DNA from: Hysterangium stoloniferum
Lineage: Eukaryota > Basidiomycota > Agaricomycetes > Hysterangiales > Hysterangiaceae
Direction: 5' to 3'
Assembly (NCBI GenBank): GCA_015178975.1
Contig: WHVD01000008.1
Span: 1,488,001 to 1,552,000 of the forward strand
Length of the DNA: 64,000 bases
Below the pieces are notes generated by a model. That model saw nothing but the letters and a program-made list of their open reading frames with translations. It did not search any database and was not told where the DNA came from. Within the stretch, counting starts at the first letter, position 1. Every line of letters begins with the position of its first letter. The translations under genes and the position numbers were made by a program. This document shows, piece by piece, positions 7,215-57,371 of the stretch.

Positions 7215-7349
7215 AGGTTCTGGCATGACAACCATATGCCTATGTTGATTGTTTGCATTTGTTTATGTTTTTCAACATGTCATGTGATCATTCTATACTA
7301 CAGTATAAGTTGAAGGGCTTTCTCAGCTAAGATTCCCTCAATTCTAACT

Positions 7350-8371: not shown

Positions 8372-8397
8372 ATACTAGTAATTTCCTGCCTAAATGT

Positions 8398-8610: not shown

Positions 8611-8677
8611 TATGACTTGAATCGTTGATAGGAGGCGATAACCTCAGGGACTGTCGGGTTGCGACACGGTCGTAACA

Positions 8678-9848: not shown

Positions 9849-9939
9849 TGGAAAATATAATGATTTTAAAACAAACAAACAAAGTGTGAAAAGGACTTAA
9901 GGCATAGTTGGAAAAAAGGTTGGGTACCACATGAAAGAC

Positions 9940-11278: not shown

Positions 11279-11312
11279 GTATATCAGATCTCAACTCTGC
11301 GACTCGCTCATC

Positions 11313-12539
11313 ATGGGTCCCAAACGCAAAGCTGCCGAAGGACCATCCCAACTTCAATCCCCGTTGCAACTTTACACCACCCAACCCGAAACCCCAATTC
11401 AGCCGACAACATCAGCTTCAATCGAAGAAGTTACCGAGGAGGTTACCGAGGTAACGAAGGATCCCAATGATCCCCATACTTCCGACAACGAAGCAGAAGA
11501 TCAGCCGGAGACATCGAAAAAGAAATCTCCCGACGAACCGACTGAAATGTTGTTTATCAACTCCATTGTGAAATTCGCTGACTATTTGAAATCCGCTGAG
11601 GATAGCAAAGAATCATCCCGCACCGGAGTCAAAGAACCCGAACCATTTACCGGCAAGGATCCGAAAAAATTGAAGAATTTCCTTCTTCAATGCCGTTTCA
11701 GTTTCCGTGATCGACCCAATGCTTTTAAATCCGACAGTCGAAAAGTCAATTTTGCGCTCTCATATCTCAAGGATACCGCTCAGGATTGGTTCGAACCCGG
11801 ACTATCCGGAATATCCAACGAGACACCCGTATGGCTCGACGACTGGGATGCCTTCGTGGAAGAACTGGAAACTAATTTCGGACCTTACGATCAATCCGGC
11901 GAAGCAGAAAACGAACTAATGACGCTCAAGATGAAGGACAATCAACGAGTTTCCGATTATCTCGTCAGGTTCAATACCCTCGCCGCATGATGTGGATGGG
12001 ACGATTCCGCCCTCAGGCACCATTTCTATATGGGACTTCCGTCACGCCTTAAAGATGAAATCTGCAAAGATGGGAAGCCAAAAACTCTCCAACTCATGCG
12101 GATGAAAGCTCAAACATCCGATGCCCGTTATTGGGAACGAAAAGCCGAGGTCTCTCGAGAGAACCCGACGGAACGTTCTCAGAACAACAAGGCATCAACT
12201 AGCAAGTCTTCCGGCAACAACTCAGGCAATAATACCGGCTCTGGCACTAATACTGGCAAATCAAATTCCGACCGGAAGAAAGACAAGAAATCCAACAAGG
12301 AAAAACAGTTAACTTCCGACAAACCCGACATTTCCCATTTGTTGGGTACCGACGGTAAACTCACCCCGAAGGAGAAACAACGATGTATGGACAACGACCT
12401 CTGCCTTTTCTGTGGGAAAGGCGGACACAAGGTTTCCGACTGTACCGTTAAATCCAGCTCTTCCAAGGCTCGCGCGGCAACTTCCACTACGACTATGACG
12501 TCTAAGGAAAAACCCGCCACGGAGTCAAAAAAAGAGTAA
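11313..12539 (+). pseudogene. Gag polyprotein of element B
   Basis: This is the structural capsid/nucleocapsid precursor of about 408 codons, starting at ATG 35 bp after the LTR. It has an acidic N-terminus, a retrotransposon capsid region (about residues 115-225, with FTGKDPKKLKNFLLQC and a YLKDTAQDWF motif), a basic Ser/Asn/Lys linker, and a CCHC zinc knuckle (CLFCGKGGHKVSDC) near the C-terminus. An in-frame TGA at 11988-11990 splits it, and element C has the same TGA. The frame ends at TAA just after a run of seven A (about 12527), and pol continues in the -1 frame there. Confidence 0.9.
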
Positions 12540-15500: not shown

Positions 15501-16164
15501 AATCCCTTCTTCCGATCGCGGAATTCGCCTACAATAACTCCCCGAATGCAACCACCGGCATATCTCCCTTCTTCGCCAATAAAGGCTATAATCCGAATCT
15601 CACAGTACATTCCGAACGAGATTTGGCTTCTGTCCGTGCTCAAGAATTTATTACCGACCTCGACGAATTACATCAAGAACTTCGGAAAGCTATTTCTTCC
15701 GCACACGAACATTATCAATGTTCCGCGGACAAAAACAGGATCCCGCCTCCTAATTTTAAAGTTGGTGATCAGGTTTTTGACCTTTCGAAATTATAGCACA
15801 AGCCGGCTCACTTTCATGGACTCTCCATCTTCCCGACAGTATGTGAGCAGTCCACCCCGTTTTCCACGTTTCCATGTTAGAATCTTGTGTTCCTAACTCA
15901 TTCCCGGAACGTATTCAGCCTCCATCCCCTCCGGTCATCATTGATGGAGAACCCGAATTCGAAGTCTCCGAAATTTTGGATTCTAAAATCGACAATCGCC
16001 GACGTACTTGTAAATTGCTCTATTTAGTCAAATGGGCAGGTTATGAAGGTACCGACAAGGAAACTTCATGGATATTGGCCACGGAACTTGGACATGCTAT
16101 GGAAATTGTTACTGACTTCCACACGGCTTATCCAGGCAAACCCGGACCTTTATCATCACTCTAA
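12530..16164 (+). pseudogene. Pol polyprotein of element B: protease, RT, RNase H, integrase, chromodomain
   Basis: The main open frame runs to 15796. In order: aspartic protease (LIDSGSTH, about 12697); reverse transcriptase (LRLCVDFRGLN, then YLDN at 13796-13807); RNase H (ETDASDYAI ... HDKELLAI); integrase zinc finger (HX..H, CX2C near 15050); DDE core (SMDFIEQL, TSDRGSKF, HPEGDGQTE). The RT box is YLDN where element C has YLDD, so a catalytic Asp is lost by a change that fits CpG decay. After the integrase a deletion removes the SH3-like block and shifts frame. The chromodomain (15874-16164, LYLVKWAGYEGTDKETSW) is intact but out of frame, preceded by a TGA that C shares. B could move only with help in trans. 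Confidence 0.9.
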
Positions 16165-16249
16165 TCTTTCTGTTCCTTTTCTGATCAACTTCCGACACTT
16201 CCGTTTTCACACTCGTTTTAGGTTTTGCAAGTCAAAAATATTATTAAAT

Positions 16250-16471
16250 CTATCTCAAAGTCTCTGACACCCCAAATCCGCCTTCCACTTCATCTCCTGC
16301 AACCTCCGCACTTTCCACCATATCCTGTACCTCCTCCTGTCGTCGCTTCAACTCCTCCATTTTCTGGCGTTTTTGTTGAAGTTCTGCGACCTTCGACATC
16401 TTTTGAAGTACGGATATTTCGGTATCTGAGTCTTCCGGGGTAGTGATGAACAACGGCCGACGAATCGACAT
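16250..16471 (-). pseudogene. Antisense gene remnant of element B, internally deleted but in frame
   Basis: This is a 73-codon minus-strand frame. The first 44 or so residues match the start of the antisense gene in C (MSIRRPLFITTPEDSD, then a Gln/Lys-rich coil). The last 28 match its C-terminus (VQDMVESAE ... GFGVSETL). About 1 kb present in C, including both introns and the cysteine region, is missing. The junction lies in a short GAGG-type repeat and keeps the frame. A TATA-like box (minus strand, 16522-16528) lies about 55 bp upstream. The stop faces the end of pol 85 bp away. Confidence 0.75.
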
Positions 16472-16645
16472 ACAAGTTGTGGTTAAAGAAACAAAAAACG
16501 TTAATTCGAATATTTGGAGGTTTTTATACTCAGAATAATAACGAAACTCTCACCTCCATAATTGCGTAAATGTCACGACACATAACAGTCAGCCGTCACT
16601 TCAAACACTCAGTACCTAATCACCTCTATGGGATTTCGGCCTAAC

Positions 16646-16655
16646 AGGGGGGTAC
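16646..16655 (+). promoter_or_regulatory. Polypurine tract of element B
   Basis: AGGGGGGTAC directly precedes the 3' LTR. The same tract precedes the 3' LTR in C; A has GGGGGGATAC and D has AGGGAGGATAC. Confidence 0.8.
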
Positions 16656-17218
16656 TGTTACAACCCGTTCCCGGATGTTTCAATATCCGACTTCCGATCT
16701 CCCACTTTTGATATCCGATATCCGACTACAGAACATCATAGTTACCGTATCATCCGCGTTCTTCATTTGTTCCGCATTTGGTAATTTGTCCATTGACAGG
16801 TATTCACTCGTTTGTTGTTGTATTCCCGTCTCGGAATATTGTCTTCCTAATATGTCTTATTGTATTTCCATTTTAAGAATACTTCCGTTTCCATCTTATT
16901 ATAGTCTCAGTTTGTAGTACAATAATGAGTAGACTTATATTAGTTTCCGCGAATTTGTACTTTACTTTAGATCTGATATCGACTTAGTTTCTTATTCCTC
17001 CTCCCGTCTTTCTGTACGCTCGATATTCGGAACTCTTCAGAACTCTGAATATCCATATCTTCCGTCGTTAGTTCACTTCCGAAATTAAGGACATTGAGCG
17101 TTTGCGTAGAGGCGCAGCACATAAGCTGAAGCCGACGTCCTGACCCTATCCACGAGTTTCTGACTTCCCGGTGACTTCCCGATAGTTCCGGAATAAGTTC
17201 CCGACACGGCACTTAACA
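16656..17218 (+). repeat. 3' LTR of element B
   Basis: It is the same length as the 5' LTR, starts TGTTACAACC and ends TTAACA, and is followed by the CAAAG duplication. Most differences from the 5' LTR are C-to-T or G-to-A at CpG. Confidence 0.95.
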
Positions 17219-20160
17219 CAAAGTTTGATTCATGCATTCGGTTTGACTGTCGCCCTCAGGGTGATAGCCCGAAGTGAAGTGTAACTTCATGTCTAGTGCT
17301 TTTCTGAGTGACCTAAAAAAGTGAGAGACAAACTCGGATCCGCGATCGGATGTGACATGCGACGGAACACCATGCTTGGAGAATACGTGGGTGATGAATA
17401 ATTCAGCTAACTGTACAGATGTTATCATGTCATATGTTGGAATGAAAATACTTTGCTTTATGAGCCTATCCACAACAACTAGGATTGCTGTATGACCTTC
17501 GGATGCCAGTAGGTGCTCGATGAAATCCATAGAAATTGAGTTCCAGGGTCTTTCCGGTATCGGTAATTGTTTGAGTAGGCCATATGGTTTGTGTCGCTGT
17601 GATTTAGAGTGTAAACACGTTGTACAAGATTTGCAATAGTGCTTAACAAAATCTCAGATGCCAGGCCATGTATATTCTCTTCTAATGAGTGAGAGGGTCT
17701 TATTGAGGCCGAAATGTCCCGAGATTGGGTGGTCATGCTTATGCTGTAGGATTCGCAGCCAAAGGGTATCGGAATCCGGTATATATGTAGATGCGGTTGT
17801 CAAGTCTAATGAAACCTTGTGAGTCAAGTGACCATCAGGGTTGATCGGGGTCGGACAGGTTATTGAGATGTGCTTTGGTGACTGGGTCTAATGGAAGTTG
17901 CCAATAGTATGTATATCTTGATGTAATTTTTTGGTGTCCATAAGGATAACACTTCGCAAGACTGGATGAATGAGGTAAGTGGCTCGAATAGATGTGGACA
18001 GTTGTTCCAATGAAAACATAGGCTTGAAATTATGCAGATTAACTGTGGTGTAGTCACTACTCCCCTCTTTAGGATAGACATCCCATTGTCTAGTCATAAC
18101 ATCGGGTTTTCCACCAAGGTGGCCGGGATGGAAACGGATTACCATATTGAAGGCGGAGAGGAATTTGGACCATCGGGCTTGCCAATGGGTGAGGAGTTTT
18201 GTGGTTGAAAAGTAAACTAAATTTTTGTGGTCAGTAATAACATCAATCGGGTGAGCCGATCCCTCCAAATAATGTCACCATGTTTTGAAAGCTTCAAATG
18301 TTGCAAGTAGTTCTTTATCATGAACATTGTAGTTGAGTTCGGGTGCCGAAAAAGTGCAAGACAAAAAGGCTACTGGGTGTACTTCACTATCGGTGTCCAA
18401 AATGGACAATATCGCAGCAAGTGCATAATCTGAGGCATCAGTTTCCACAATGAGTTGAATGTCAGGCTTCCAGTGCAACAAAATAGGGGCAGATGTAAAC
18501 GCACTTTTCAATTCTTGGAATGCTGTTTGGCATTCTTCGGAGAAAATCCATGAGGTGTCTTTATGAGTAAGACGAGTGAACGGAACGGTAATTTTTGAGT
18601 ATTTGTGAATGAAACAACGATAAAAATTGGCGAAGCCTAAAAAGGATTGAATATCTTTAACCTTTCAGGGTTCTGGCCAATCTTGAATGACTTGAATTTT
18701 GGAGTTGTCCATGCGGAGACCGTCGGGTCCCATCATGAAACCTAAATATTCAACTGTGTCAACATCAAAAGAACATTTTTTACCATTCGCGAAAAGACCA
18801 TGTTTTCGGAGTCTTCAGAGGACTTCACAAACATGTTCATCATGAAGTGTAGGATCTTCGGAGAATATGAGGATGTCGTCTAAGTACACAATGACAAAGA
18901 CATCAAGGAGGTCGGAAAAGATATCATTGATAAAATATTGAAAGACCGATGGAGTGTTGGTGAGGCCAAAGGGCATCACTAACCATTTGAAGGAGCCATA
19001 GCGAGTGTGAAAAGCTGTTTTCCATTTGTCACCTTCGGTGATCTGAACCAAATGATAGGTGTGCTTGAGGTCTATCTTTGTATAGATTCGGGCCTTCCGA
19101 GGGGCATCGAGTAAATTGGAGATTAGTGGTAACGGGTACTTATCTTTTCAAGTGATCGCATTTAGTCCTTGAACATCAACACAAAGCTGAAGGGAACTGT
19201 CTTTTTTCTGAACAAATAGGACAGGGGCTCCATAAGGAGACTTTGAGGGTCAGATAAATCCTATAGCCAAATGTTCATCCAAGAAATCTCAGATAGCCGA
19301 TAACTCGGACTGCAAGAGAGGATAAACTGGGCCTAGGGGTGGATGTGAACCTTCTTCAATATCAATTTTCAAATCATAAGGCCTGTGAGAAGCAAGTCGA
19401 TCAGCTTTTTGTTTACTGAAGACATCTGCAAATTCATGGTATTTTTCTGGAACACCTTCCAAATCTGTGATCGGTTCAGTCACTGGGGATGCAAAGCGAC
19501 TGGTGACTTCGTCAACTTTAAGATTGACTGTAAATGCTCGGGAGCCGTCCAACTTGATGGCTCTCATAAAAGCTGTGGTGATTATTAGAGAGATGGGCAG
19601 CAGAGAGCTTGGATTTGCCATGGGGGCCCGAGGTGCTGTAGAGGCCATATTTGCCAAAACAGGTGGAAACGGACCAGTCGTATCGGGTGCCGATGGGGTT
19701 CGGAAATAGATACTGCCCAATACCCAATCAATCAATGGATTGTAGCGGGTGAGCCAGTTATGTCCTAGAACCACGGAGCAGCTCGGGTCCAACTGTGTTA
19801 CAAAAAATGTAACTGTCTGAAAGGTTCCACATGGGAACCGAAGTTGGATTTCGCAGGCTTGCGAGATTACAGAGTTTGAGGTACCATTGAAGAGTCAGAG
19901 TGGAATTGGATCTATTGCATAGGTTTTTAACTGATTTTTTTGGGAAAAACTTGTATCTATAAAACAATGGGTTAAACCTGAATCTATGAGAGCTCGAAAG
20001 GTGAGACTCCCAAGGGGTTCTGAAGTAAGATTTATAAACAAGGAATTAGGATCATACAGGGCAGATGCATTAAGTTGACAATTTTCTGGTGTGTGGGGAG
20101 ATTCAATGCAACTCTCCAACTGCATGGAATCCAGAGAGTTGCTTAATCTTTTTTTTGACT
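17219..20160 (-). pseudogene. Element A pol, proximal part: protease to integrase core
   Basis: Read from 20160 down: a protease with LIDSGLTH; an RT whose box reads [11 protein letters not shown] (near 18890); RNase H (ETDASDYALAA); integrase zinc finger and catalytic core (MDFIEHL, TSDRGSEF, HPEGDSQTE), broken at MNQTL by element B. Gag and protease are joined in one frame here, because the A run at the gag end has eight A. Breaks between the readable blocks are mostly TGA where B and C have CGA Arg, for example near 18819 and 18664. Sequence is close to B, C and D in every domain. Confidence 0.85.
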
Positions 20161-21448
20161 TGGCAGCCGGCTTAACTGGTTGTGAGGTCGTGGTATTGGC
20201 CAATCGGGCTTTTGTGGCCTTCGGGCATGTGGCGACTCGGTGTCCAGGATCTGTGCACAACAAACAAAGGTTGTTGTCCATTCGGCATTGCTTTTCCTGT
20301 GGTAGGAGCTTGCCATCGGAGCTGAGTTTGCCAGTTAAGTCAGGTTTGTCTTTATCTTGGGACTTATTCAACTGTTTGCCCTTGCCTTTTTTGTCATTAG
20401 AACCCTTGTTTTTGAACTACTTATCAGAGTTCGAGTTGCTACTATTGTTGGTGTTTTGATTACCAGACTTGTTAGCATTCTTATTGTCCAATGATTTTTT
20501 GTCCGATGGGTTTTCGCGACTAATTTCTGAACATCATTCCCAGTATCGGGCATCCGTGTTTTGCGCCTTTAGATGCATGAGGGGGAGAGTCTTCGGTTTG
20601 CCAGTCTCTCCTTTGGAAACTTCGTCTTTAAGGTGAGATGGGAGGCCGGAGTAAAACTGGTAATGGAGGGCCGAATCACCCCAGTCGCAACATGCGGTGA
20701 GGTTGTTGAACTGGACGATGTAATCAGTGATGCGCTGGGTGTCTTTCATTTTTAGATTAGAAAGTGCAGTTCCAGCATCGCCGGTTTGGTCGTAGGGACC
20801 AAAGTTTGTTTCAAGTTCCTCAACAAAGGCATCCCAATCATGAAGCCAATTGGGATCTTTGGAGGTGAGGCTGGAGAATGCGGGTTCAAACCAGGCTGCT
20901 GCGGAATCCTTAAGGTATGAGAGTGCAAAATTTACCTTTCGGTCATCCGTTGCAAATGCAGCCGGGCGGTCCTGAAAGTTGAATCAACATTGCATGAGAA
21001 ATGTTGGCAATTTCTTCGGGTTTGAGCCGGTAAATGGTTTGGGTTTGTTGACTCAGGTTTGCCCAGGTTCTTTTTCCTTGGTATTGCTTTTAAGGAATTC
21101 GTTAAGGGATCCTAGGGTACCTGAGAACAATTCCCATGTCTTGTCGGGATCAAGAACTGGTTTTTGTTTTGCGGACTTCTTAGAACCACTGGCCTGAGGT
21201 ATGGGTTGGTCACCATCCTCGGGTTCAGGTTCTGGAGCTGATTGATTATTATCCCCTTTGGGTGCTTCGGGTTCAGTTGCTTCAGTAACTTCTTCAGCAT
21301 CGCCAGTAATTTCCACAAAGCGGGATTCTTCAGAGGTTCCTGGTTGCGGGGTTCTCAGAGTAGCTCGGGCTGTATACAGGAAAGGAGACTTGAGAGTGGA
21401 AGATTCTGCTTCGCCACTTGGCTTAGCATCTTTTTTTCTTGGAGGCAT
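20161..21448 (-). pseudogene. Gag of element A
   Basis: It starts at ATG on the minus strand, 37 bp inside the 5' LTR (MPPRKKDAKPSGE). It has an acidic, Pro/Glu-rich N-terminus, the capsid block (NFALSYLKDSAAAWFEPAF), DARYWE before the basic linker, and a CCHC knuckle (CLLCTDPGHRVATC). Several stops interrupt it, including one after residue 131 and one after DARYWE where Arg is expected. It is homologous to gag of B and C along its length. Confidence 0.85.
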
Positions 21449-21485
21449 GATTAACGGAAAGTGTGAGTGTGAAATCAGAATATAC

Positions 21486-22226
21486 TGTTAAGAACTGAAA
21501 ACTGACTAATGTCAGTAGGCTGACAGGGACCGATCGGAAGGACTTGGCTTCACCTTATGTGCTGCACCCTCACAATTATCCATCAGGTGTCCTTAAATTT
21601 TGGATGGGTGGAGACTAGTCCTAATGAATACCTCTCGGCGGAACTACCGATCAGAACCGAAGGATAAGTCGAGTGTCAGGCCAAGGGGTCAGAGACCAAG
21701 AGTGGGCGAGCGCACACGGAGGCGGATAGTAGTGTACTTAGTATGAGACTGCTAAAGATGTAAGAGGGTATTCTGAGTCGATATTCTGATTGCCTAATAA
21801 CTACAACTACAACGGGTTCATATACAAGTATTCAGCATCTAGGAAATACTAACTAGGAGAAGAGTGGAAAACGGTATTGACAAATAAGCTTGACTAGGAA
21901 TGGGAAGGTTATGATTAGTTTGGAGGCCGTGAGATAACTGAGAGCAGAATTACGAGAAAAGGAAATAGTCTGAGGGTTACAAGTATATATAGACATATGT
22001 GAAACATAGAGTAGAATGGATCATCATAATAAAGGGACATATCAGAGTTTAACCAGATAGTACGAGTATATTTTGATGGGGGCGTAAATGGAGTTTGATC
22101 ACCACAAAGGCATACGTCAGCATTGGGAACCTGACGGTTTCCGATGTGAGGACTTGAACTATGACTTGAATAGTCGATAGGAGGCAATAACCTCGGGGAC
22201 TGTTGGGTTGTGACACGGTTGTAACA
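21486..22226 (-). repeat. 5' LTR of element A (L1 family)
   Basis: This 741-bp LTR has plus-strand ends TGTTAAGAAC and GTTGTAACA and is followed by the AATGC duplication. It contains the core shared with L2 and L5 near 21540-21570. It serves as the empty-site reference for the Tc1/mariner insertion. Confidence 0.92.
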
Positions 22227-37899: not shown

Positions 37900-38076
37900 T
37901 GTCACAACTGTCACAAGTCACAAAACTGTCACAAATATTCAAAGGTAACTTTTGACAACTCTTTGACACATTGAATTCGACTTGACAAACCTGAACATAT
38001 TTTGACAACATTGAATCTCTTTCAACATGTCTCATTTTGATGTCATGTATGATTTCATTATTAATTCATAACATAG

Positions 38077-38578
38077 TGTGAAGAGTGGTATAAGTTCTGA
38101 CCGTTCTATATACGAAGAAATGAGTAGAATGGGAAGATGGATGATTCAAGAAGGATGATTCAAGAAGGATGATTTGAGAAGGATGATTTGAGAAGGATGA
38201 TTTGAGAAGGATGATTTGAGAAGGATGATTTGAGAAGGATGATTTGAGTGGAGGCCTCGACTGTTACAGTTCGAGGCCAGAAGTGTTAGATAGTTCAGAT
38301 ATTGCTACCTATGTAGTAGCTGACATGTTACCCTGATCACCACTCATAGTAGACCTAGTTTATGTCTTATGAGTGGTGGTTCTTGGGTAAAAGTGTGTCT
38401 GAGTTCTAATTGGTGCCGAGTGCACCCACAAGTATACACAATGCTTCGAACTAATGAAATGATGGAATATTTGAAGAATATAAAAGATAGATAAATATGA
38501 ATAGAATGTGTAAAATATAAATAAAATAAAAGGAGTGTTTTACCACAATGAAACTGTGGTAAAAGCATACTCCTCACA
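38077..38578 (-). repeat. L4-family solo LTR, TSD CATAG, with an internal minisatellite
   Basis: It is flanked by CATAG at 38072-38076 and 38579-38583. It is about 100 bp longer than other L4 copies because of the 14-bp tandem array at 38139-38250. Confidence 0.9.
38139..38250. repeat. Tandem array, about 8 copies of a 14-bp unit
   Basis: The unit is GGATGATTTGAGAA; the first copies read GGATGATTCAAGAA. The sibling LTR at 59385-59791 has only one unit, so the array expanded locally. Confidence 0.85.
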
Positions 38579-38861
38579 CATAGTCATAACGATATGAAGA
38601 AAAGCATAAAAGGGCTACAAAAGGAGCAAGGGAAGTCAGTCAAAATATCTGTAAATTAGTGATACTAGTAATCTATCTTGTTGTAACTTCTTCAACAAAT
38701 ACTTCCGTGAGTTCTCGCAACTGGTAATAGCCTCTTACTTCATTGACAGGGTGAATATATACTTCGTTGAACAAGGCTTTTGAGTTCGATTAGTAGAATA
38801 TTATTTGACTTTATTGAAGAATAATCAATTCATGACAGTATATTTCGACTATCAACTGTTG

Positions 38862-40679
38862 ATGAAGCCCAGGATGCGATCCAAGACTACCAAAGCATCG
38901 AGTTCTACAGCACTCCAATCTGTGGCTCCCATTCCATCACCAAGAGTTATTCGGCCATCGTGGATTCCAGTTTTTCCTTTGACCAAAACTTGAAGAGCTA
39001 CGATGTCTTCAATTTGAGAACCCGAAGAAGTTCGAGAAGAACCAATCTTGCCAATTCAAGAATCCAAATCCCCTTTAATGCTGTGAAGAGTCGATAGATT
39101 CTGACCGTTCAATATACAAAGTATAGCATTTATTCAACTACTATTGGCAGGTATTGACTGTTCAGTACAATACCGTAGATTACTAGACTGGCAGTACTAG
39201 CAGGGAGACACGCAACGCATCACAAGAGCAACTGTACAGTTGCTCTTGACGGCTAGAATGAAAAGATGACAGAGTTGACCTTCACGGTACAACTCGTAGC
39301 TAGAAGTAAGATAGATAATCAACGAGAAGCTGAATATCTAAAGTAAAGAGATAGTAGCGCGAGTCGACTATAATGTCGACGAGCGCAAAGACCTTAGAGT
39401 GGAACTCGACCTTTGCGGTTCGAGTCCAAAGTCTGTTAGTATGCGAGAGATCACTACCTTTATAGGTAGTTGAGACGTTACCCTTGACACCTCTCACTAT
39501 TCGACGTCTGGGTCGTTTACGAGGTGGTGTCTGCTGGGTAAAAAGTGTCTATCGTTTGGTGCCGAGAGCGCCCATACGTATACACAAAGCTTCGAACTAC
39601 AAAATAAGGGTATGCTCGAAATATAGAAAGAATGTAAATGAAGAAAATAAAAAGTAAATAATAAAGTACTATAATCCAACTATTATTCCTTAGTCCAATT
39701 ATGCATATATGCATACCCTTCACAAACACCTTTGCCTGAATCTCCGCCTCCCGAACCTGTTATGTCTGAGGATGAAACAATGTTACGACATTTCAGAGAT
39801 GCACTCGGAAAGGTATTGAAGGACCAGATGTCTTCGAAGGAGCCCAAAATCACAGTGAATAAGCCCAAAAAGTTTACTGGAGAAGAACTTTCAATGTTGA
39901 AGAATTTTATCACTCAATGCGAAATGGTCTTCCGATCTCGACCAAAATTGTTTAAATCCGATCATCGAAAATTATGATGGTAACTTCATATTTCTGGAAA
40001 ACAGCTCAAGAGTGGTGGCAACCTTTTCTATTAAATCCCCCGATTCCTCCACCATCTTTCCTTGTGGATTATCTCAATTTTCTAGATGAATTATATGCTC
40101 AGTTTGGAGAAATTGATGCAGAAGGAGAAGCTGAAGAAAAACTCGATAATCTTTGAATGAAAGCTCATCATCATGTGGCGAAGTATTCGATTCAATTTAC
40201 AAGTCTTGCTGCTCAAATTCAATATGACGAATTCACTTTACGACGACGATTTTATAAAGGACTTCCAAATCAAATTAAGGACGAAATAGTGAAACTTCAA
40301 GTTCAGCCCGAAAGTTTTGCCGAACTGTGAATGGCTGCCCTTCAACTTGATTCTCACTATTGGATGAAAGAGAATGAATGACAACCTGAAACAGATTCAA
40401 GTTCGACTCCACAAAGATTTGAAAGAAGACAATTGATGACGCCAACGACTTATCCTTCGACATCACGAATACCTTCGACTTCAAAACCAATAACTTCGAC
40501 TTCAAGAACATTTAGGCCTTCAACTCAACTCAAGCGAAACCATCTTCGACAATTTTAGGACCTGATGGATGATTACTTCCTGCTGAATGAGACAGAAGAT
40601 TTAAAGAAGGGTTATGTATATTATATGGAGAAAAAGACCATTCAGTGAGGGATTGCCCAAAAAGAAAAACTCGTCAAAT
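38862..40679 (+). pseudogene. Element D gag
   Basis: The N-terminus (MKPRMRSKTTKASSS) starts about 25 bp inside the LTR and is interrupted by the LTR at 39082-39724. The capsid block at 39732-40330 shows KKFTGEELSMLKNFITQCEM, WKTAQEWWQPF and GLPNQIKDEI, parallel to gag of A and B. The zinc knuckle near 40615-40660 reads C-I-L-Y where the second Cys is expected, then GEKDHSVRDC, so one zinc ligand is lost. Several TGA stops replace Arg, for example before MKAHHH and MAALQLD. Confidence 0.75.
39082..39724 (-). repeat. L4-like solo LTR; flanks AATGC and AACAC
   Basis: The plus-strand ends are TGTGAAGAGTC and CCCTTCACA. The duplications at 39077-39081 and 39725-39729 differ at two adjacent bases, and both derive from AACGC by one CpG transition each. 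Confidence 0.75.
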
Positions 40680-41508
40680 TGTTATGACTGGACAATCCTG
40701 CCGGACTCCAGGCACTAACCCGTATGCCCCCACGCGCTACAAGCACCAATTGTCTGTTTATAGGATTTTCCACCCGGACTCTGTCACGTCAAGACTAGTT
40801 ACGTTCGACCTCATTATGACACATATCAGTCACCGGACTTCCCTGGACTCCATCTCTGTCTATGTCCGTCTTCGTCCCATGCATCAGTCACCAGACCCCG
40901 CTCAGAATCCCGTCACCACTCTAATCGAGCCCCATTCCCGTTTTAGTCAAATGACCTGTCACGATTTAGGACTCTGCTCCCGCTCTGTTTCCCGTTATGG
41001 GTTATGCTTTGTCATGATTTGGACTCCGCTCCATTCCTAACACCAATTTGGTGTTTACTATTCCCGTTTTATGTTTTGTTAGTTTCATTTCATTATTACT
41101 GGATTTGGTATGTCATTCACTCCATGGTCTATATAAACTGGCAGATGTTGTACATACAATCCAGTCAGAAAATTAGCTTAGATTCCCCCTAGTAATCTAA
41201 TAACATTTTTCACTCTAAAACCTTACTTGATTCACATCGCTCGCACTAGTCGGAGCCCACGGGCTCCGGCACATCTATCTCTCTCAACTATCTCGACTCA
41301 CAACCCACAACCTCCGACTTATGACCCACGACCCCCGACTTACGACCTACGACCCACGAACTCCACCCGGACTCCCCAGGATCCCCATCTGTCTGTTTGA
41401 AATTGGACAACACGATCTAGCGAGGGTGCAGCCTATAAGCTGAAGCCAAGTCCTACCGGATATCCCACAGGTTTCTCCGGAAACCCGGCCTGTGTGTGTA
41501 TCCTAACA
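40680..41508 (+). repeat. L5-family solo LTR, TSD CAAAT
   Basis: This 829-bp LTR starts TGTTATGACT and ends CCTAACA, flanked by CAAAT at 40675-40679 and 41509-41513. It separates gag from pol of D. Confidence 0.9.
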
Positions 41509-41513
41509 CAAAT

Positions 41514-44129
41514 CACAAAAGGACAAATCGTTGAAGTTCAAGATTTGACAGCTCAATCCGACCCGTCGAATCAAACATCAAATGTTAAATCGGAAAATTG
41601 AAAAGGGATACTCTTCAGGCATGTGAAGAGTATTGAAGAAAACTCAATCATGCCGAAAAATATTCCTGTGTAATATTATGAGCGGTAACAATTTCTGATT
41701 CTTTAATTATTGAACTTAAATTGAAAAAAATTCTGAAAATGAAAGCATTAATTGATTCAGGATCTAGTCATCTTTTTATGGACAAAACATTTGCACGACA
41801 AAATAATCTATCTTTCAACCAATTGAAAAATTTGTTATCATTAAATTAATCAATGGATCAACTCCGACATCAGGACAAATCAGGTATACGACTACATTAC
41901 AAGTTTACTTTCCATCCAGGCAGACTCAAGAATTACAATTCTTTTTAACTAATCTCGACTTGTCTTGCCAAGTGGTATTAGGACTCAACTGGCTGAAGCA
42001 ATACAATCCTGCAATTGACTGGCGATCTGGCTGTATATCGTTCGAACCTACTTCGACACTTTCGACAAATCCGAATCCAATTCAACTGTCAATCGAAACG
42101 TTATCGGAAGAGAAGCATGCTTCGACCTCAGTGAGTCATTCATCGACATCTGAGAAAATTCATGAAGAATCGAAATCCGAGACTGTCAATCCAAATATCA
42201 ACATAGTCAATCAGAAGACTTTCTTATGAGCTGCAAAAGCAAAAGACTCTCAAACTTTTGTGGTCTTTATTCACGATGAATCTTTCAAGACTTGTAAGGC
42301 CTCTGGTGCAAAAACTATGACTTCGACTTCATTCGACGTACCAAACATTCCGACCGAATATTCCGACTTCTCAGATGTTTTTGACAAAAAGGAAGCTGAA
42401 GCTTTACCTCAACATTGAAGTTATGATCACGCTATCCCATTAGAAGAAGGAACTACTCCACCTATGGGTCCGATCTATTCATTATCCAAGGCAGAACTTC
42501 AAGTGCTACAAGAATATCTCCAAGAAAATCTTTTGAAGAAGTTTATTCAATCGTCGCAATCTCCCACCAGCGCACCAATTTTATTCGTTAAAAAGAAAGA
42601 TGGAAGCCTACGACTTTGCATCGACTATTAAGGACTTAACAAAATCATGCGAAAAAACTGATATCCACTTCCTTTAATTCCTGATCTTTTGGATCAACTT
42701 TGAATGGTGAAATATTTTATGAAAATTGATCTCCGAGGTGCCTATAATTTAGTTAGGATTGCTCCAGGTGACAAATGGAAAACAGCCTTTCGGACTCAAT
42801 ATGGATCTTTTGAATATTTGGTTATGCCTTTTGGACTATGCAATGCACCGGCAACCTTTCAACAATTAATGAATGAAATATTTTCAGATTTACTTGACAT
42901 TTGGGTAATTATCTATCTCGACGATATACTAATATTTTCCAACAATCTCAAAGAACATTTACGACATGTTCGAGAAGTTCTTTGACAGCTTCAACAAAAT
43001 CAATTATTTGCAAAACCCGAAAAATGTGAATTTCACAAAACCAGTGTTGAATTTCTAGGATATGTTATTTCCCCTCAAGGTGTATATATGGACGAAGAAA
43101 AAATCAAAGTTATTCAAGATTGGCCCAAACCACAAAAAGTCCGTGACATTCAATCATTTTTAGGATTCACGAATTTCTATCGAAGATTTATTCCAAGTTA
43201 TTCTGAAATTGTTTTACCATTGACTCAACTTACTTGAAAAAAGGTTCAATGGCATTTCAACGAAAAATGTCGACATGCATTTAACTATTTGAAAAAAGAA
43301 TTTACTACAGCTCTGATTTTAATTCATTGGAATCCAGATTATAAACCCATACTCAAAACTGATGCTTCTGATCATGCCATAGCTTCAATATTTTCTATGC
43401 AAACTCCCAATAACGAAATTCATCCAGTTGCTTATCATTCAAGAACTCTTTTGACCTCCGAAATTAACTATGACACTTACGATAAAGAATTATTGGCAAT
43501 ATTCAAATCTTACAAAATTTGATGACATTATTTCAAAGGAACAAAAGAGCCAATTGAAGTTCTAACACATCACAAGAATCTTGAATATTTTGTGACAACT
43601 CGAATTTTGTCTCAATGACAAGCTTGACCTTTAATTTAATTATTCAATTTTGACCGGGAAAACTAAATTTGAAAACAGATGTTCTTTCCAGAAGAAATGA
43701 CATTTACCCGAATGAACCCAATTACTTGAAAAAGAATCCAACTAATCTTTGACTGGTATTTACAAATAAGCAAATTCAAGCTTCCTTACATGCAACATAT
43801 TATCTTCCAATAGTGAGAAAAGCTACTCTCATTATGGATACAGATCAACTATTGAAAGATATATTCAAAGCTCAAAAAGAAGATCAATTTACTCTCGACA
43901 AAATTTGACAGATTTCCGACGGTACTGAAGAAGATTGGCAAAAGAATGAACAAGACTTTTTATGTTTCCAAAACAGAATTTATGTTCCCAATTATCAAAC
44001 TCTCTGACTTCGAATTCTTCAATCACAACACGATCATATTACTGCAGGCCATTTCAGTCAAATGAAAATGTATTGAACAATATATCGAGATTTCTTTTGG
44101 CCACAACTCCGACAAGATATTTGTAATGT
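41514..44129 (+). pseudogene. Element D pol, first part: protease, RT, RNase H, integrase zinc finger
   Basis: The protease site ALIDSGSSH is near 41746. RT starts near 42470 with the KDG..LC.DY. region and carries YLDDILIFS near 42914. RNase H is at 43289-43570 (KTDASDHAIAS, YDKELLAI). The integrase zinc-finger His pair (HDHITAGH) lies near 44020-44050, and the reading stops at ICNV by insertion of a 2-kb element. TGA stands where Arg is expected at many sites (before YPLPL, QA and PGKLN), plus a TAA in DY.GLN. Confidence 0.85.
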
Positions 44130-46161
44130 ATTAGCCTTATTTCAATATTATTTTCTGGAAAAAGGAGTCCAATGCTCAATCAAAATGTGCAAATACTCAA
44201 TTCACTACAAGGTAAAATAATTTAAGTATTTGATATTAATCAGTGGCAGCCTAAATAGACTTAGAACCCCTGAAGTCAAGAGTTTACTTGAATATATGCA
44301 CCCAACTTCGCAAAGAAGGTTTTGAGAGCTGCTTGTGCAAGCTTGTTCTTTTTCTGTGATAACAACTACTAAAATAAGAATAACAATTTACTGATTCCGA
44401 AGCTAGATTTAACTTCAATGCTAGCTAGTTTATATATATTTTATACTATTTGTCAAACAGTAAAAATATCTATAAACGGGTCAAAAGATTAGATATAGAA
44501 TAAAACACTATTTGGCTAATATATGCTTTATTTACACTAACCTACAAGGTCTACTGTGATATTAACTTATCAGGATCTTAATGTAGTCTTAAGGATTCTG
44601 CAAGGATATTCTCAGTATTTGTTTATGTGAATATGCTTTACTGATTCACAATAAATGAACAAAGGAACGGGATTATTTGCAATGTAATAAACAGTCAAAT
44701 TACTCAACTAGAGGTGACTGAAGTCTTAAACTACAAATAACAATGTAAGGAAAACTAATAATCAGTACTCAATTAAGAGATGACTATAGTATGAGATTAT
44801 TTATATATTATTAGTTGATAACCAACAACTCTAACTGAGGTGGAAATAATATATAAAAGATAGCCAACTATTCAGTTAAGAAGTGGCAAGGGGGAACAAA
44901 AGTCAACAACTCAGATTGAGGTGACAGGGGAACAGCAGATCAGTCAACAGCTCAGATTGAGGTGACAAGGGATCTGATTGGGCCAACAACTTTGATAGAG
45001 GTGGCAAGGGTTTCCAACAGCTCAGATAGAGGTGGAATTAGATGTCCAACTGCCCAGATAGGGGTGGAGTAGCCTGCTTGCTGCAGTGACACACACAGAT
45101 GTGGTGGGTTGATGTGATGATATGATTGATTTATTCAAGGCTGGAGCTGAGCTCCTTATATACATTTTAGTCTGAGACATTTAGAAGATTCTAGAAGATT
45201 TAATGATGTCATTCTGGGAGGAGTGATGTCATTTAGAATTTTCTAGAATTTTCTAGAGCATTGTGGAAGGTTCTAACTACTTCTAAGACACTATAGAATA
45301 TTCTTGGCATAATGGAACATTGTAGAATTTTATAGAATATTCTACAATATTCTATCTAATATTAGTACCTATTAACTAATGTTCCATTGGAAGCCACTGG
45401 AATGTTCCAGAGAGTTTCCTGTTTTTGTTGCAGTAGCATATATGATGACATAATGCTCTCGCGCCTGTGCGCGCGCATGACACTTCGCGTCTTGTGACTG
45501 TCACGCGTTGTGACAGTCGCGCGCCTGTGTGACCGTCGCGCGCCTCTGTGACCGTCGCGCGCCTCTATGACCGTCGCGCGCCTCTGTGACCGTCGCGCGC
45601 CTCTGTGACCGTCGCGCGCCTCTGTGACCGTCGCGCGCCCTTGTGACAACTGTCACCTGTTATGACGGTTGTCACTCGTTGTGACGATTTTCCCGCGCGC
45701 CGTGTAATAAACGCCAGGCCGGTTTTATATTATTATATAATTATTATATTTACTTTTAATTAGTTATAAATATAATATTTTATTATAATAATATAAAAAT
45801 ATATATATTTCACCTTGATAATGCGCGAGTATTTCAAATCGCGTTTTGTCAGCGTCGGAGTTTGAAATATCATGTGAATGTCACATGATTACTCGCGCGT
45901 TGTGAATAAGCGCTGAGTCGCCGACATATTAATCAAAAAAGAATAAAAAGTAGAAATTCAATTACTTGCTCAATTTATTAGATAAAAATACAAAATAAAT
46001 TGTATAAATTCAGGATAAATCAAACAAATATTGTACAATTTAATCGTCGCAATATAATTACATTTGAATATTTGTTTTCGCAATTTGTTAGGGGAAATTG
46101 TTTAAAAAATTGGAAAAAACTTAGAAATACATAACAATATTCAAGATTTTATTCGATAATG
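44130..46161. mobile_element. 2-kb non-autonomous element with 8-bp duplication TGTAATGT
   Basis: TGTAATGT flanks it at 44122-44129 and 46162-46169, and the D integrase frame continues across (ICNV, then CTKSKTPRHRP). I find no transposase. The ends show only weak inverted similarity. Inside are several copies of a CAACAGCTCAGATTGAGG-type subrepeat (44700-45075), TTCTAGAA-type short palindromes (45190-45350) and a CpG-rich minisatellite. An 8-bp duplication with subterminal repeats is typical of hAT transposons; that class is inference only. Confidence 0.6.
45528..45645. repeat. CpG-rich minisatellite, about 6 copies of a 19-bp unit
   Basis: The unit is GTGACCGTCGCGCGCCTCT. Flanking variants run from 45470 to 45690. 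It stands out from the AT-rich, CpG-poor surroundings. The minus-strand open frame across it (45649-45362) is only a by-product of the repeat. Confidence 0.85.
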
Positions 46162-46169
46162 TGTAATGT

Positions 46170-47987
46170 GTACAAAATCGAAAACTCCACGACATCGACC
46201 TGTTGGATTACTTAAGCAACTCCCGATTCCTCTTTGACCATGGCATTCAATCTCAATGGATTTTATCGAACAATTACCGACCTCAAATGGTTACGACTCA
46301 ATACTCATAATTGTTGATCGACTTTCAAAACAAGCAATATTCATTCCAACTTATACTACGATCAACACCCCCAAACTCGCTCGACTTTTCGTATTACATG
46401 TCTTTTCAAAACATGGAGTCCCAAGTCATGTAACTTCTGATCAAGGATCCAAATTTGTGTCACATTTCTTTCAATCTCTCGGAACAGCACTCAACATGAA
46501 ATTACATTTCACTTTGGGATACCATCCTGAAGGTGATTGTGAGAGGTATGGTGAAATACACTCAGGAAATATTGTCAGATGAGCTCTTACTATATTTCCT
46601 TTATTATTTCTATTTCCTCTCTTTTATTATATCTATAATTAGTTCGACGACCTATGTATGCGGTACATCGACTCTTGTGGGCGACACATGCCAGACTTAT
46701 GTATTCTAGCGCCCGTAGTTTAGAACTCAGACACTTTTTACACCGCAACCACGACTTACCCAGACACCCATTAGTGTCCTGTAAGTTGTGATTGGTGTAT
46801 CGTCTCAACCGTCATAAACGGGCTTTAGCTATCTACTCTATCAGAGTTTCAAACTGTACCAGTTGAAACTCAATCCTTATCGCTACTCGTGTGGACCACA
46901 TCCACGCTATTCTATTATTCGACTCTCTAGTACTCTACTCTACTTTCGAGCAGTCATTCAGAATCACACTAGACAGTCGATTCTACTTATTCATTTTAGC
47001 TCTCTACCTTATTCTAGATAGCTACTTCTTTCTACCGTATTGAACTGAGTAGTCAATACGCGTTCATTCTGTATTAGACTTCGACAGTCAATACATCTTA
47101 GTGTCGTACCTAAACGGTCGATATTCTTCGTATATAGAACGGTTAGAACTTCCACTACTCTTCACAGTGATGGACAAACTGAACGAGTCAATCAAATTCT
47201 CAAACAATATTTACAAATATATTCCAAATTCTCAAACAATATTTACAAATATATTCCAATTATCAACAAGACAATTGGGCCGAGTTACTTCCTTTAGCTG
47301 AATTCACTTACAACAATGCACCTTCTGAAACAACTGGTGAAACACCATTTTTTGCTAATAAAGGTTATCATCCATTGTTAGAAATTCACCCTGAAAAAGA
47401 TCTAGCTTCCGCTCTAGCTCATGATTATACGACAGATCTCGAAGCTCTACATAAACATCTCAAATCAAATATCCAGAAAGCACAAATATGTTATCAACAA
47501 TATTCCTACATACATCGAAAAGAGTCATTCGACTTTCCGATCCATTCTCAAGTCTTTGTACGATCCGACTTCATTTGAATGACTCGACCATCAAAAGAAT
47601 TATTGGAAAAATTATTAGGCCCATTTGAAATCATTGCTCAACCAAGGTCTCACTCATATACATTAAAACTTCCCAATCATCTCAAAGGAATTCATCCTGT
47701 CTTTCACGTCTCAATGTTAGAACCATTTTATCCCAATACTTTCCCAAATCGAAAACAACCTCCTCCTCCACCAATTTATGTTGAAGAAGAACCCGAATAC
47801 GAAATTTGAGAAATTTTGGATTCAAAATTCAATAAAAGATATAAAGATTTGTTATGATATTTAGTTGCTTGGTTAGGTTATGAAGGAACAGACGAAGAAA
47901 CTTCATGGTTAGGATCTCAAGATCTCGAACATGCTTTCAACCTTATCAAAGAATCTCATCAAAAATATCCAAACCTTCCACAACATT
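46170..47987 (+). pseudogene. Element D pol, second part: integrase core and chromodomain
   Basis: The catalytic regions are SMDFIEQLPTSNGYDS, TSDQGSKF and HPEGD; a solo LTR splits the core right after GYHPEGD, and it resumes at 47172 with the GQTERVNQ-type sequence. The SH3-like GPFEIIAQPRS and HPVFHVSMLEPF blocks follow, then a chromodomain (YLVAWLGYEGTDEETSW) ending at 47987. TGA replaces Arg at several sites. Confidence 0.82.
46538..47166 (+). repeat. L3-family solo LTR, TSD GTGAT
   Basis: This 629-bp LTR starts TGTGAGAGG and ends CTTCACA, flanked by GTGAT at 46533-46537 and 47167-47171. Confidence 0.92.
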
Positions 47988-48122
47988 AAAAATTTCATTC
48001 AACTAACTTTCGACACTTATTTCGACATCTATTTGACAAAATCGAAAAAAACATATCAAAAGCAAAAAACATCAATTAAATCAAATTTTCTAATATCTAC
48101 AAGTCCTCAATTCCTTCCTCTC

Positions 48123-48986
48123 TCAATTCTGCCATCTTATCAAACCATGCCCCTCTAAATCTTCCACTATTAATGCTAATGTCAGTCTCCTCACTAAAAT
48201 CACCACTTTCGACCAATTTTTCGACAAAATCAAAAAATCCTTTCTAAACGCTTTGACCTCACTGATTAAATCCTCCATAGTTTCTTCCAATTTTGACATC
48301 CTTTCACCGATCGACTTTATTTCTTTTTCCAAGTGGTTATCTGATCGATTATCTGACCTCCTCGACCATCTTGAAAAATTTGACATTCTTGACATAAGGT
48401 TGTGATGAATATTCTTCCTTTGTCCAAGCTTGCAAATCCCTGGACTACCATCTTCACTTTCATTTTCTGACTCTTCGATCACGTTTTGAATTTTCTTTCA
48501 GTTTCGACATGGTTTTCCAGCTGGCCTATTCACGGTCCAATAACAGGCCCAATGCAATCGATTGCACCAATCGCAATTTGACGACGTGTTAGTCTTCTTG
48601 CACATGAAATTCATGTTAAAACACATGGTGCAACTGGAAAAAACAAACTAGCAAAAATTGACAAAAAATTGACAAAACTGAAAATTTACGAATTTTCTGA
48701 TTTTGTCTCAAATTCCCATTGCATCCCAATTCCTTTGCGAGTTGCCTTATTGAACAGTTCTTCGCAGTCTGCTATGCACTTTTTGGGAATTTCTTCTAAA
48801 AAATAACTAATTAACTAATTTAAAAGAAATCCCAGAAATTGACTTACCAACTGCATCAACAACCATATCCCTATCCTCAAAACCCAAAAACTCAGATTCT
48901 GATTCAAATTGATTGACTTCTATGTCAGACATTGATTGATGAACACGAAAATAGACAATGAAAATCTTTTCAAACTCTGACCTCAT
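48123..48986 (-). pseudogene. Antisense spliced gene of element D: Zn(II)2Cys6-like cluster plus coiled coil
   Basis: This minus-strand gene lies between pol (ends 47987) and the 3' LTR (49012). Proposed exon 1 is 48986-48848, acidic (MRSEFEKIF ... FEDRDMVV); donor GTAAGT. Exon 2 is 48796-48690; exon 3 runs from 48633, after a TTTTTTCCAG acceptor. Exon 3 opens with six cysteines spaced CX2CX6CX8CX2CX6C, which fits the fungal binuclear zinc cluster, followed by a helical, coiled-coil-like tail (SIGERMSKLEETMEDL). Lesions: an extra A in an A run of exon 2 and a TGA after PCRN where Arg is likely. A protein that binds nucleic acid is the natural inference; its role for the element is unknown. 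Confidence 0.7.
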
Positions 48987-49011
48987 GGGCTCAGTCACAA
49001 AGGGAGGATAC

Positions 49012-49428
49012 TGTCACAACTGTCACAAGTCACAAAACTGTCACAAATATTCAAAGGTAACTTTCGACAACTCTTCGACTCGACAAACCCGAACATATTT
49101 CAACAACATTGAATCTCTTTCGACATGTCTCATTTCAACGTCATGTATGATTTCATTATTAGTTCATAACATAGTCATAACAATATGAAGAAAAGCATAA
49201 AAGGGCTACAAAAGGAGCGAGGGAAGTCAGTCGAAATATCTGTAAATTAGTGATACTAGTAATCTATCTTGTCGTAACTTCTTCGACAAATACTTCCATG
49301 AGTTCTCACGACTGGTAATAGCCTCTTACTTCATCGACAGGGCGAATATATACTTCGTTGAACGAGGCTTTCGAGTTCAATTAGTAGAATATTATTCAAC
49401 TTTATTGAAGAATAATTGATTCGTGACA
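49012..49428 (+). repeat. 3' LTR of element D
   Basis: This 417-bp LTR is preceded by the purine tract AGGGAGGATAC (49001-49011) and followed by the ACCCT duplication. It lacks the L4 insertion seen in the 5' LTR. Confidence 0.92.
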
Positions 49429-50366: not shown

Positions 50367-52126
50367 ATATCAATTCGTCGGCCACTGTTCATCACTACCC
50401 CGGAAGATTCAGATACCGAAATTGCCGTGCTTCAGAAAATGTCGAAGGTCGCAGAACTTCAACAAAAACGACAAAGGATGGAGGAGTTGAACTGACGACA
50501 GGCAGAGGAGGAAAAGGCATTGATGCAGGAGTTGAAAGATGCGGAAGAGGCGGAAAAATGGGAGTTGGAGCAGGCGAAGGCGGAGGCTCAGAAAAGGAAG
50601 GAAGAGGCGGAAAGGTTACAGCGGGAGTCAGAAGCGGCGAAAAAACGTGAGGAGATAAGGGAGGGAAAGGTAAGTGATATCCATAATTTCTGTGGTTCCA
50701 ACTGATAACTATTGGGTACAGCGAAAAGCCGTGGAGATGGAGGTAGAGGGAGAAGCTGGACCTTTGAGTCCTAAAGTAAGTGCATCTACAAAAGGCCGAT
50801 ATTGATTAACTTCCAGAACAGAAGCCAAAAGTCAAGGCTCCAGAACGGATGGAAGTTGTTGGAAACAGAAGGTAAAATGGGGTGGAACTTGCTATCCCTG
50901 CATGGTTCTTAAACTTCTGTGCACTCTTGCCTTGAAAAGGGTTCCAAAAGGTGAGAAGCTGTGAAGGATAGGTCATATAGGAGGCACGACTAAAGGCTCT
51001 AAGCCTAGACCTTAAGCCGCTTTATAATACAATTATTTCATTTTGTTTTATATTTTTTATAATACAATTATTTCATTTTGTTTTATATTTTTTATTCTCT
51101 CTTTATCACTCATAAATATGCTTTATTAGTTCGAGAGCCCATGTATGCTTGTGGGTGCTCTTGCCCACAAGAAGTATGCATATGTCACAGTAGTAGTCAC
51201 ATGACAAAAACTTAGACACTTTTCAACCCCGACAACCATCACCTGCACACGCAAGTACTGGTTTGGGGTCTTGTCTAAAACAAACCTCTACTCTATCCCT
51301 CTTCATTGAGTCATAGTAATTACACTTCACACTGAAACAGTCGAAGTCCGTTACTACTATTCGACTCAACTTCAAGCTCTTGAACAGTGTGGTAAGAATA
51401 TCCATCGTAACTAACTTCCTTAGGATATTCTCTCTCCTTCGCGCACTATATACTTTCTCTTGTCTATTCGGCCTTCAGCCCAACTAGCTAAACAATTGAA
51501 TCATACCGTAAGGTCGATCCGTCCTTGTAATTATCTGCTGATCATACCTTAAGGGTCGATCGTAATCTACATCTTAACTACTAGTCGATTGTATTTCGTA
51601 CTATCGTTAGTCAATAACAATCGTACATTGAGTGGTAAACTACTCGACCCTTTACAGAAGCCTCAGAGAACTAACGACGTGGAAAGTTCAGGAGCTGCCA
51701 AAGCTGTGGAAACTGAGGTACCGAAAATGGATAGTACAGGCATGGAGCCTCCTCAAGGACACCGTTGATGCGTTAGTCTTTATTGGGACGGAAGTTATGA
51801 AAATGCGGGATACTCTAGATCGCCATAATGAGATCCAGGAAAAAGGTTTCCGTTCGTTGGTCTGAAATTTCCAGAGACAAAACGAATTCCTGGAGAAGGT
51901 AATGGTTAGCATCGGTGTGATCGCAGTTTCCGAGAGATTTTCCGATAAGGCAAGGGAACAGCCTAACGATCCGTTGGTGGAATATGTTGAAAAGAGATGG
52001 GAGTCAGGGAAAGGACCGGAAAGTGAAGATGAAGAGGTACAGGATATGGTGGAGAGTGCGGAGATTGCAGATGATATGGGAGTGGAAATGGAAGGAGGAT
52101 TTGGGGTGTCAGAGACTTTAAAATAG
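50367..52126 (+). pseudogene. Antisense spliced gene of element C, start lost and interrupted
   Basis: It is homologous to the B remnant at both ends and to the A gene in the middle. Exon 1 is 50367-50669 (charged coiled coil), but its ATG is now ATA, and a TGA replaces Arg after MEELN. Intron 1 is 50670-50721, exon 2 is 50722-50775 (ends GPLSPK), and intron 2 is 50776-50816. Exon 3 is cut by the LTR at 50960-51656. Both introns sit where they do in A: after REGK before RKAV, and after GPLSPK before KQK. The cysteine region is degenerate (KWGGTCYPC recognisable) with frame slips. The tail (51744-52126) is helical and ends FGVSETLK. The stop faces the end of pol about 97 bp away. Confidence 0.7.
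50960..51656 (+). repeat. L6-family solo LTR, TSD GAAGC
   Basis: This 697-bp LTR starts TGTGAAGGATAGG and ends CTTTACA, flanked by GAAGC at 50955-50959 and 51657-51661. It contains a 37-bp direct duplication near 51024-51096 and the core shared with L3 and L4 at about 51124-51160. Confidence 0.88.
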
Positions 52127-57346: not shown

Positions 57347-57371
57347 GTCGCAGAGTTGAGATCTGATATAC

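Follow-up and report, generated by a model that had tools for sequence, protein, structure and literature searches.

We analysed a window of 64,000 nucleotides from Hysterangium stoloniferum, in which a chromovirus LTR retrotransposon (D) lies on the plus strand at 37900..49428, as delimited by reading its LTR pair and flanks, with nested insertions inside it. The element is bordered by a 5-bp target site duplication (ACCCT, at 37895-37899 and 49429-49433). Its 5' LTR (37900..38837, plus strand) is broken by a repeated insert of ~350 bp (about 38232-38577), and its 3' LTR (49012..49428, plus strand) runs from TGTCAC to GTGACA; the two are 93% identical over a 260-base piece and 86.5% identical over another of 178 columns that includes one gap. 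The pol region, located by tblastn using the pol of a second family (A, see below) as a query, spans 41751..47989 on the plus strand, is decayed and interrupted by inserts, and ends with a C-terminal chromodomain (about 47816-47980, plus strand) and a stop codon at 47987-47989. The D-family chromodomain scored 33.0 bits against PF00385, above the curated cut-off of 25.1, and the reverse transcriptase (RT) of D is 59% identical to that of A over 244 aa.

Between the pol stop codon (47989) and the 3' LTR (49012), a gene of three exons lies on the minus strand (48097..48932, ATG to TAG), with a length in open copies of 242 codons plus the stop. Exon 1 (48848..48932, ATG at 48932) is followed by intron 1 (48796..48847, GTAAGT...TTTTTTAG, donor at 48847), exon 2 (48690..48795), intron 2 (48634..48689, donor GTAAAT at 48689, acceptor TTTTTTCCAG ending at 48634) and exon 3 (48097..48633), which holds a six-cysteine domain (C-X2-C-X6-C-X8-C-X2-C-X6-C, 48543..48632) and a coiled coil, all on the minus strand. 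An initial annotation of this DNA had proposed a split minus-strand frame here, with one donor, one acceptor, six cysteines at this spacing and a coiled coil after them. This observation is confirmed with the exon count corrected to three: the frame is present between D pol and the 3' LTR (48932-48097), the cysteines at 48632-48543 have the spacing claimed, and the GTAAGT donor and the TTTTTTCCAG acceptor both exist, but the former belongs to intron 1 and the latter to intron 2, so that the frame is split twice and not once. The coil is supported by a heptad pattern in exon 3 (a/d contrast of 0.96 in D copy L024, reached by 0/200 shuffles), and a basic stretch separates it from the cysteine domain. 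The window copy itself is broken by an in-frame TGA from 48500 (exon 3) and one frameshift. The strict six-cysteine pattern occurs twice in the window, in D and in a third element (B), versus 0 occurrences in 60 order-1 Markov resamples.

Fungal Zn2Cys6 domains follow the spacing C-X2-C-X6-C-X5..12-C-X2-C-X6..8-C, and the domains of D (linker of 8) and of A, B and a homologue from another source named P0002 (linker of 10) all lie inside this range. Against the Pfam profile Zn_clus (PF00172, cut-off 21 bits), an A copy scored 7.8 bits and B copies 12.5 and 8.9 bits, and this profile was not among the Pfam matches listed for D, for P0002 or for two further B-type copies (L089 and L090). The zinc-cluster label given in the initial annotation thus holds for the cysteine spacing but not by the Pfam cut-off, which none of the copies tested reached. 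Eight loci from the 42 Zn_clus matches of the genome were compared with A and B, and none was clearly alike (best E-value 0.003, 37% identity over 38 aa). Among the genome's own Zn_clus matches, some are tightly clustered on C56, C113, C115, C150 and C209, a number of them repeated in one frame, and perhaps represent tandem cysteine-rich repeats. For A and B, exon 3 gave no coil signal beyond shuffled sequences (26 and 22 of 200 shuffles reached the signal, respectively). Pfam and PDB searches yielded weak matches only, mostly to coiled coils, including one to a CREB chain in the PDB (E-value 0.23), and neither bZIP nor TRP28 (PF04195) was among the Pfam matches listed for D, A, B and P0002.

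To collect copies of the D gene, we searched the genome at the DNA level and retained the best 40 of 165 candidates, from which 30 loci were aligned, including the window copy. Each of the six cysteines was kept in 30/30 copies. Donor 1 was GTAAGT in 29/30 copies and acceptor 1 was TAG in 30/30; donor 2 was GT in 23 copies, AT in 6 and deleted in 1, and acceptor 2 was CAG in 27 and TAG in 3. The frame was open over its 242 codons in 9 of the 30 copies and broken in 21, one of which (L032) is left out of the open set by an extra base in exon 2; both donors were GT in 7 of the 9 open copies. We also observed that the interior of intron 1 (48804-48840 in the window) had a variability of 0.044, versus 0.208 at third codon positions and 0.127 in intron 2, for which we have no explanation.

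We then computed dN/dS (omega) across these copies. Over all pairs, omega of the gene frame was 0.35-0.40 depending on which of two ways of counting was used (codon bootstrap of 0.29-0.43 for the value of 0.35), and 0.32 without CpG sites. Read in its two other frames, the same strand gave 1.43 and 1.33, and the three opposite-strand frames gave 1.36, 1.64 and 0.48, the last of which, like its counterpart at 0.53 in A, we take to share wobble positions with the gene frame. Differences by codon position were 0.085, 0.078 and 0.208 for positions 1, 2 and 3 over the 30 copies, third positions differing ~2.5 times as much as first or second ones. Across the gene, every frame of the pol strand contains 4 or more stops in all copies (30/30), so no sense-strand frame accounts for the constraint. 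For family A, 29 loci were aligned without the window copy (41 matches listed, best 40 of 333 candidates scored), and omega of the gene was 0.46-0.47 (bootstrap 0.40-0.54), falling to 0.37 in the 25/29 copies whose pol could also be aligned, in which the pol 3' end had an omega of 0.43; four of the five other frames gave 1.3-1.6 and the fifth, on the opposite strand, 0.53. The gene frame is therefore under purifying selection in both D and A. Neutral dN/dS had been named beforehand as an outcome that would speak against retention, and what we found is non-neutral: 0.35 in D and 0.37-0.47 in A versus 1.3-1.5 in the other two same-strand frames.

Searching the genome with the D chromodomain and keeping the best 150 of 2066 candidates, we retained 91 places at ≥81% identity after leaving out one overlapping row. 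A match to D exon 3 was found within 2.5 kb downstream of at least 85 of these 91 D-type pol ends, on the opposite strand in 85/85, with a median gap of 114 nt. D-family copies lacking the frame, the other adverse outcome foreseen in the initial annotation, were thus not a feature of the family; the six pol ends without a gene could be decayed or interrupted by insertions, or have a gene beyond the exon 3 matches listed. In 29 of the 30 D copies, omega of the last 300 pol codons was 0.45 versus 0.35 for the antisense gene, and 2 copies were stop-free in the aligned columns for the pol 3' end versus 10 for the antisense gene. Gene and pol distances were correlated in D (Mantel r of 0.42, 0/2000 permutations) and in A (r of 0.34, 9/2000 permutations). 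In A, the density of stops was 0.52 per 100 codons in the gene versus 0.47 in pol, and 5/25 copies had no stop in the gene versus 7/25 in pol; this similarity to pol counts against reading the sequence as an accessory gene.

The family A gene occupies the same place as that of D and consists of three phase-0 exons totalling 340 codons with the stop counted. All copies (29/29) have GTAAGT at donor 1, and the domain is C-X2-C-X6-C-X10-C-X2-C-X6-C, with a linker of 10 versus 8 in D; five cysteines were kept in 29/29 copies and one in 28/29. The A pol passes the Pfam cut-offs for RVT_1, RT_RNaseH and rve, and the A-family chromodomain scored 32.1 bits against PF00385 (cut-off 25.1). Two A-type elements lie in the window. 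The first (10716-17218), whose LTRs are 97.5% alike, is nested in the B pol in opposite orientation, and its antisense gene (16253..16471, minus strand, start at 16471 and last codon at 16253) is internally deleted and has no cysteine domain. The second (49693-57914, minus strand) carries an antisense gene (50367..52123, plus strand) whose ATG is changed, which is interrupted by an insert and which keeps only the second half of the cysteine domain.

Element B (6311..22226, minus strand), of the gypsy type with an A-like chromodomain, is divided by two insertions, A (10716-17218) and a Tc1/mariner-like element (7000-8612). Its antisense gene can be followed on the plus strand up to the cysteine domain (8854..9477), beyond which the frame is broken: exon 1 (8854-9153) has a GTAAGT donor, exon 2 ends at 9288 with a GTGGGT donor, and exon 3 starts at 9337 and encodes the only complete six-cysteine domain of the window besides that of D (C-X2-C-X6-C-X10-C-X2-C-X6-C, 9382-9477). 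Besides the two lineages from which retention had been argued, a third one thus carries the gene. Elsewhere in the genome, the B-type copies L088 and L089 (94.6% alike) combine long open pol frames with an open exon 3. In a younger B-type set, exon 3 is open in L090, and L091 (98.8% identical) keeps the cysteine domain with a frame that departs later. Their sister L087 has lost the cysteine exon. We considered this loss as the mark of a young family and rejected it, since the deletion looks private: 33 of 40 L087 matches (the best 40 of 252 candidates) begin within ~5 bases of the deletion edge, and the two of these sisters that were read, L090 and L091, both keep the cysteine domain. The Tc1/mariner-like transposon, which is inserted in the 3' region of B, has terminal inverted repeats of ~216 bp that are 96% alike and an open frame at 7668-8306 on the plus strand; its assignment to the Tc1/mariner type was made by eye.

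To look at other families, we took the ~2.2-kb 3' flanks of 12 chromodomains, picked for spread from the best 150 of 2268 candidates. The four other chromodomain types present among them (7, 2, 1 and 2 flanks) showed no antisense six-cysteine gene of their own, nor, in the window, did a distant gypsy-type element C (RT 31% identical to that of A; 33763-37884 and 57915-58074), which is apparently split by D and the A-type element at 49693-57914. The motif occurred in one of the 12 flanks, L079 (G000:C553:69961-72307), where the antisense six-cysteine domain was a candidate for a gene of a C-type element and was rejected by DNA comparison: this locus is a B-type 3' fragment (gene and LTR) following ~530 bases of C-type sequence and was hence not counted for C. 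It would be either a recombinant or a truncated insertion, in which a C-type pol end is followed by a B-type antisense gene and LTR. Among protein records, the A-type exon 3 profile had a single named match, BU17DRAFT_62310 (Hysterangium stoloniferum), which is 100% identical to contig C2. P0002, an A-type homologue of 227 aa with 41% identity to A over 77% of the query, includes the cysteine domain; no relatives of it were found in viral contigs, and neither the N-terminal half of the D protein nor the D exon 3 alignment retrieved any homologue.

These comparisons bear on whether the genes of A, B and D have one origin. RT identity to A is 73% for B, 59% for D, 48-50% for three families without an observed gene and 28-31% for the C types. 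The initial annotation had described the D protein as barely alignable, outside the cysteines, to that of an element it calls A, and in our comparison of the A and D proteins hhalign aligns the cysteine domain only (probability 0.8%, E-value 0.068). Over seven A, B, D and P0002 sequences, no column is invariant apart from those of the six cysteines, one glycine and one valine. Such a limited match, these 8 residues included, speaks for separate captures, A/B and D each having taken up a zinc-cluster gene with convergent likeness. That history, which we regard as rather unlikely, is further favoured by the intron phases (0/0 in A versus 1/2 in D) and by the RT tree alone, in which D falls beside the three families without a gene seen (support 81/85). 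Against it stand the equal place and orientation and near-equal cysteine spacing in A/B and D, as well as two short chromodomain insertions that, in a MAFFT alignment, are common to A, B and D and absent from the other families. An A+B+D clade was not rejected either (AU p of 0.26 for RT) and became slightly better with the chromodomain added (p of 0.57), in trees of 10 rows that were too small to decide between one and two origins. With moderate confidence, we therefore regard it as likeliest that the ancestor shared by A, B and D acquired the gene once and that the sequence outside the domain then changed fast. Of the earlier claim that the pairing of location, splicing and spacing reflects long-term retention and not chance, the second half stands, and the persistence of one ancestral gene since the A/D split is plausible but unproven.

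We next consider how the gene would be expressed. The word TATAAA was present in 29/29 A copies, 56 nt before the ATG in 24 and 57 nt before it in 3 of the 27 measured. It also lies 57 nt before the ATG in the A element at 10716-17218, in the window copy of B (at 8797) and in L088 and L089. In A, it is located outside the LTR, between the gene and the 3' LTR. Its position makes this word a candidate core promoter of antisense transcription in A and B. In D, where the antisense ATG is 80 nt from the 3' LTR, there was none at the corresponding position, and a TATA-like word occurred within 150 nt upstream in 2/30 copies. As candidate binding sites, we counted CGG/CCG pairs in the LTRs: those of A (10716-11278 and 16656-17218) contain 3 inverted and 4-6 everted pairs versus about 1 in shuffles, and the B LTR 3 inverted pairs versus 0.4 in shuffles. 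No excess was seen in the LTR of the second A-type element (1 and 0) or of D (0 and 0), and no clear binding motif common to the LTRs of A, B and D emerged.

Taken as a whole, we consider it probable, with some reserve, that the D, A and B chromoviruses carry a spliced antisense accessory gene of their own, zinc-cluster-like in its product, which likely tunes transcription of the element. The gene, lying between pol and the 3' LTR and predicted to be read from the opposite strand and spliced, would give rise to an antisense mRNA, which in A and B may start from the TATA promoter between the gene and the 3' LTR. Its introns can persist through the RNA stage of the life cycle because the genomic RNA, being of the sense strand, does not contain them as introns. 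Judging from the analogy to zinc-cluster factors and HBZ, the protein would be a nuclear, dimeric, DNA-binding regulator: it would bind zinc through the six-cysteine domain, dimerise through the coil, work in the nucleus and, through binding to LTR or host DNA, tune the transcription of its own element or of sister elements. A more specific version, which we advance only tentatively, is that this self-encoded antisense factor has been kept since before the A/B/D split and acts in trans on LTRs. If so, sister families would share or contest one regulator, and the factor would be a fungal equivalent of HBZ built on another DNA-binding fold.

The protein might instead be a structural partner in the life cycle, a cysteine-rich nucleic-acid binder serving packaging, nuclear import or target choice. 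Basic stretches adjoin the cysteines, as after the D domain, and the antisense protein of the plant element Grande is nuclear, nuclear import being discussed for such proteins (PMC7264820). On the other side, a transcription unit of its own with introns would mean that the product is made apart from gag-pol, and the cysteines are spaced as in the zinc clusters of transcription factors and unlike those of a CCHC knuckle. We consider neither argument conclusive and hold this role to be unlikely. Less likely still is that the conserved unit is a non-coding antisense RNA, silencing or tuning the element via double-stranded RNA, with the frame as a by-product. Other elements are known to have non-coding antisense transcripts (PMC7264820), the TATA-like word is in the right place for one in A and B, and the strong conservation of D intron 1 (0.044) is not something that a protein requires. 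It is difficult to reconcile, however, with an omega of 0.35 in frame versus 1.3-1.4 in the two other same-strand frames, with third positions in D varying ~2.5 times more than first and second ones, and with the retention of splice sites and cysteines, which make it an improbable reading. That the frame is open by chance, or a functionless hitchhiker, could be suggested by the broken window copy of D and by the loss of the cysteine exon from L087 in a young set, but is hardly credible given the motif in 0/60 resamples, an omega well below 1 by codon bootstrap, which refutes it for A and D, and the private look of the L087 loss next to the domains kept in L090 and L091.

The coding and regulatory reading favoured above has parallels in known systems. 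The antisense open reading frames (aORFs) of plant Ty3/gypsy elements (Grande, RIRE2 and Retand/TRP28) lie, as here, between pol and the 3' LTR; they are kept across families and have a predicted or observed nuclear or DNA-binding character, and the Grande antisense gene has its own promoter upstream (PMC11963269, PMC7264820). Retand is a plant non-chromovirus element with TRP28 (PF04195), whereas the genes described here belong to fungal chromodomain elements and have introns and a six-cysteine domain. The HBZ/APH genes of HTLV are spliced antisense genes at the 3' end whose products are nuclear regulators acting on the LTR (PMC10186651). The likeness of the present genes to these consists in the antisense position at the 3' end and predicted splicing; HBZ is a bZIP protein expressed from the 3' LTR, whereas here we find six cysteines, with a coil in D, and a TATA-like word that in A and B lies outside the LTR. 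To fungal Zn2Cys6 factors (PF00172), the likeness lies in the spacing and, in D, in the coil after the domain, and the difference in the Pfam cut-off, below which the present sequences fall. In a survey of fungal chromoviruses, the legend of Figure 3 mentions an additional ORF of unknown function, and the words antisense, opposite and zinc are absent from the main text (PMC2864245); this is a possible earlier sighting of a relative. Among the titles and abstract openings of the top-ranked papers in the open PMC literature, outside of which most subscription papers fall, we found no fungal gene of this kind described.

Plant Ty3/gypsy elements and HTLV are known to carry antisense genes close to the 3' LTR. 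A selection-preserved antisense cysteine-rich gene in several families suggests that elements carry a regulator of their own, and the fungal set offers many copies, several families, open frames and a type of domain whose DNA binding can be assayed, which makes it testable whether retrotransposons encode their own transcription regulators. It also indicates that antisense genes of retrotransposons can carry introns, which can survive the RNA stage on the other strand. A further observation concerns annotation. We examined an annotated Hysterangium protein (P0001) as a possible fourth family and rejected it, as its locus (L086, G000:C2:1251700-1253900) is a rearranged relict in which the pol 3' end and the antisense exon 3 lie on one strand. 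P0001 is recorded publicly as a hypothetical protein, and such genes may therefore inflate counts of orphan genes.
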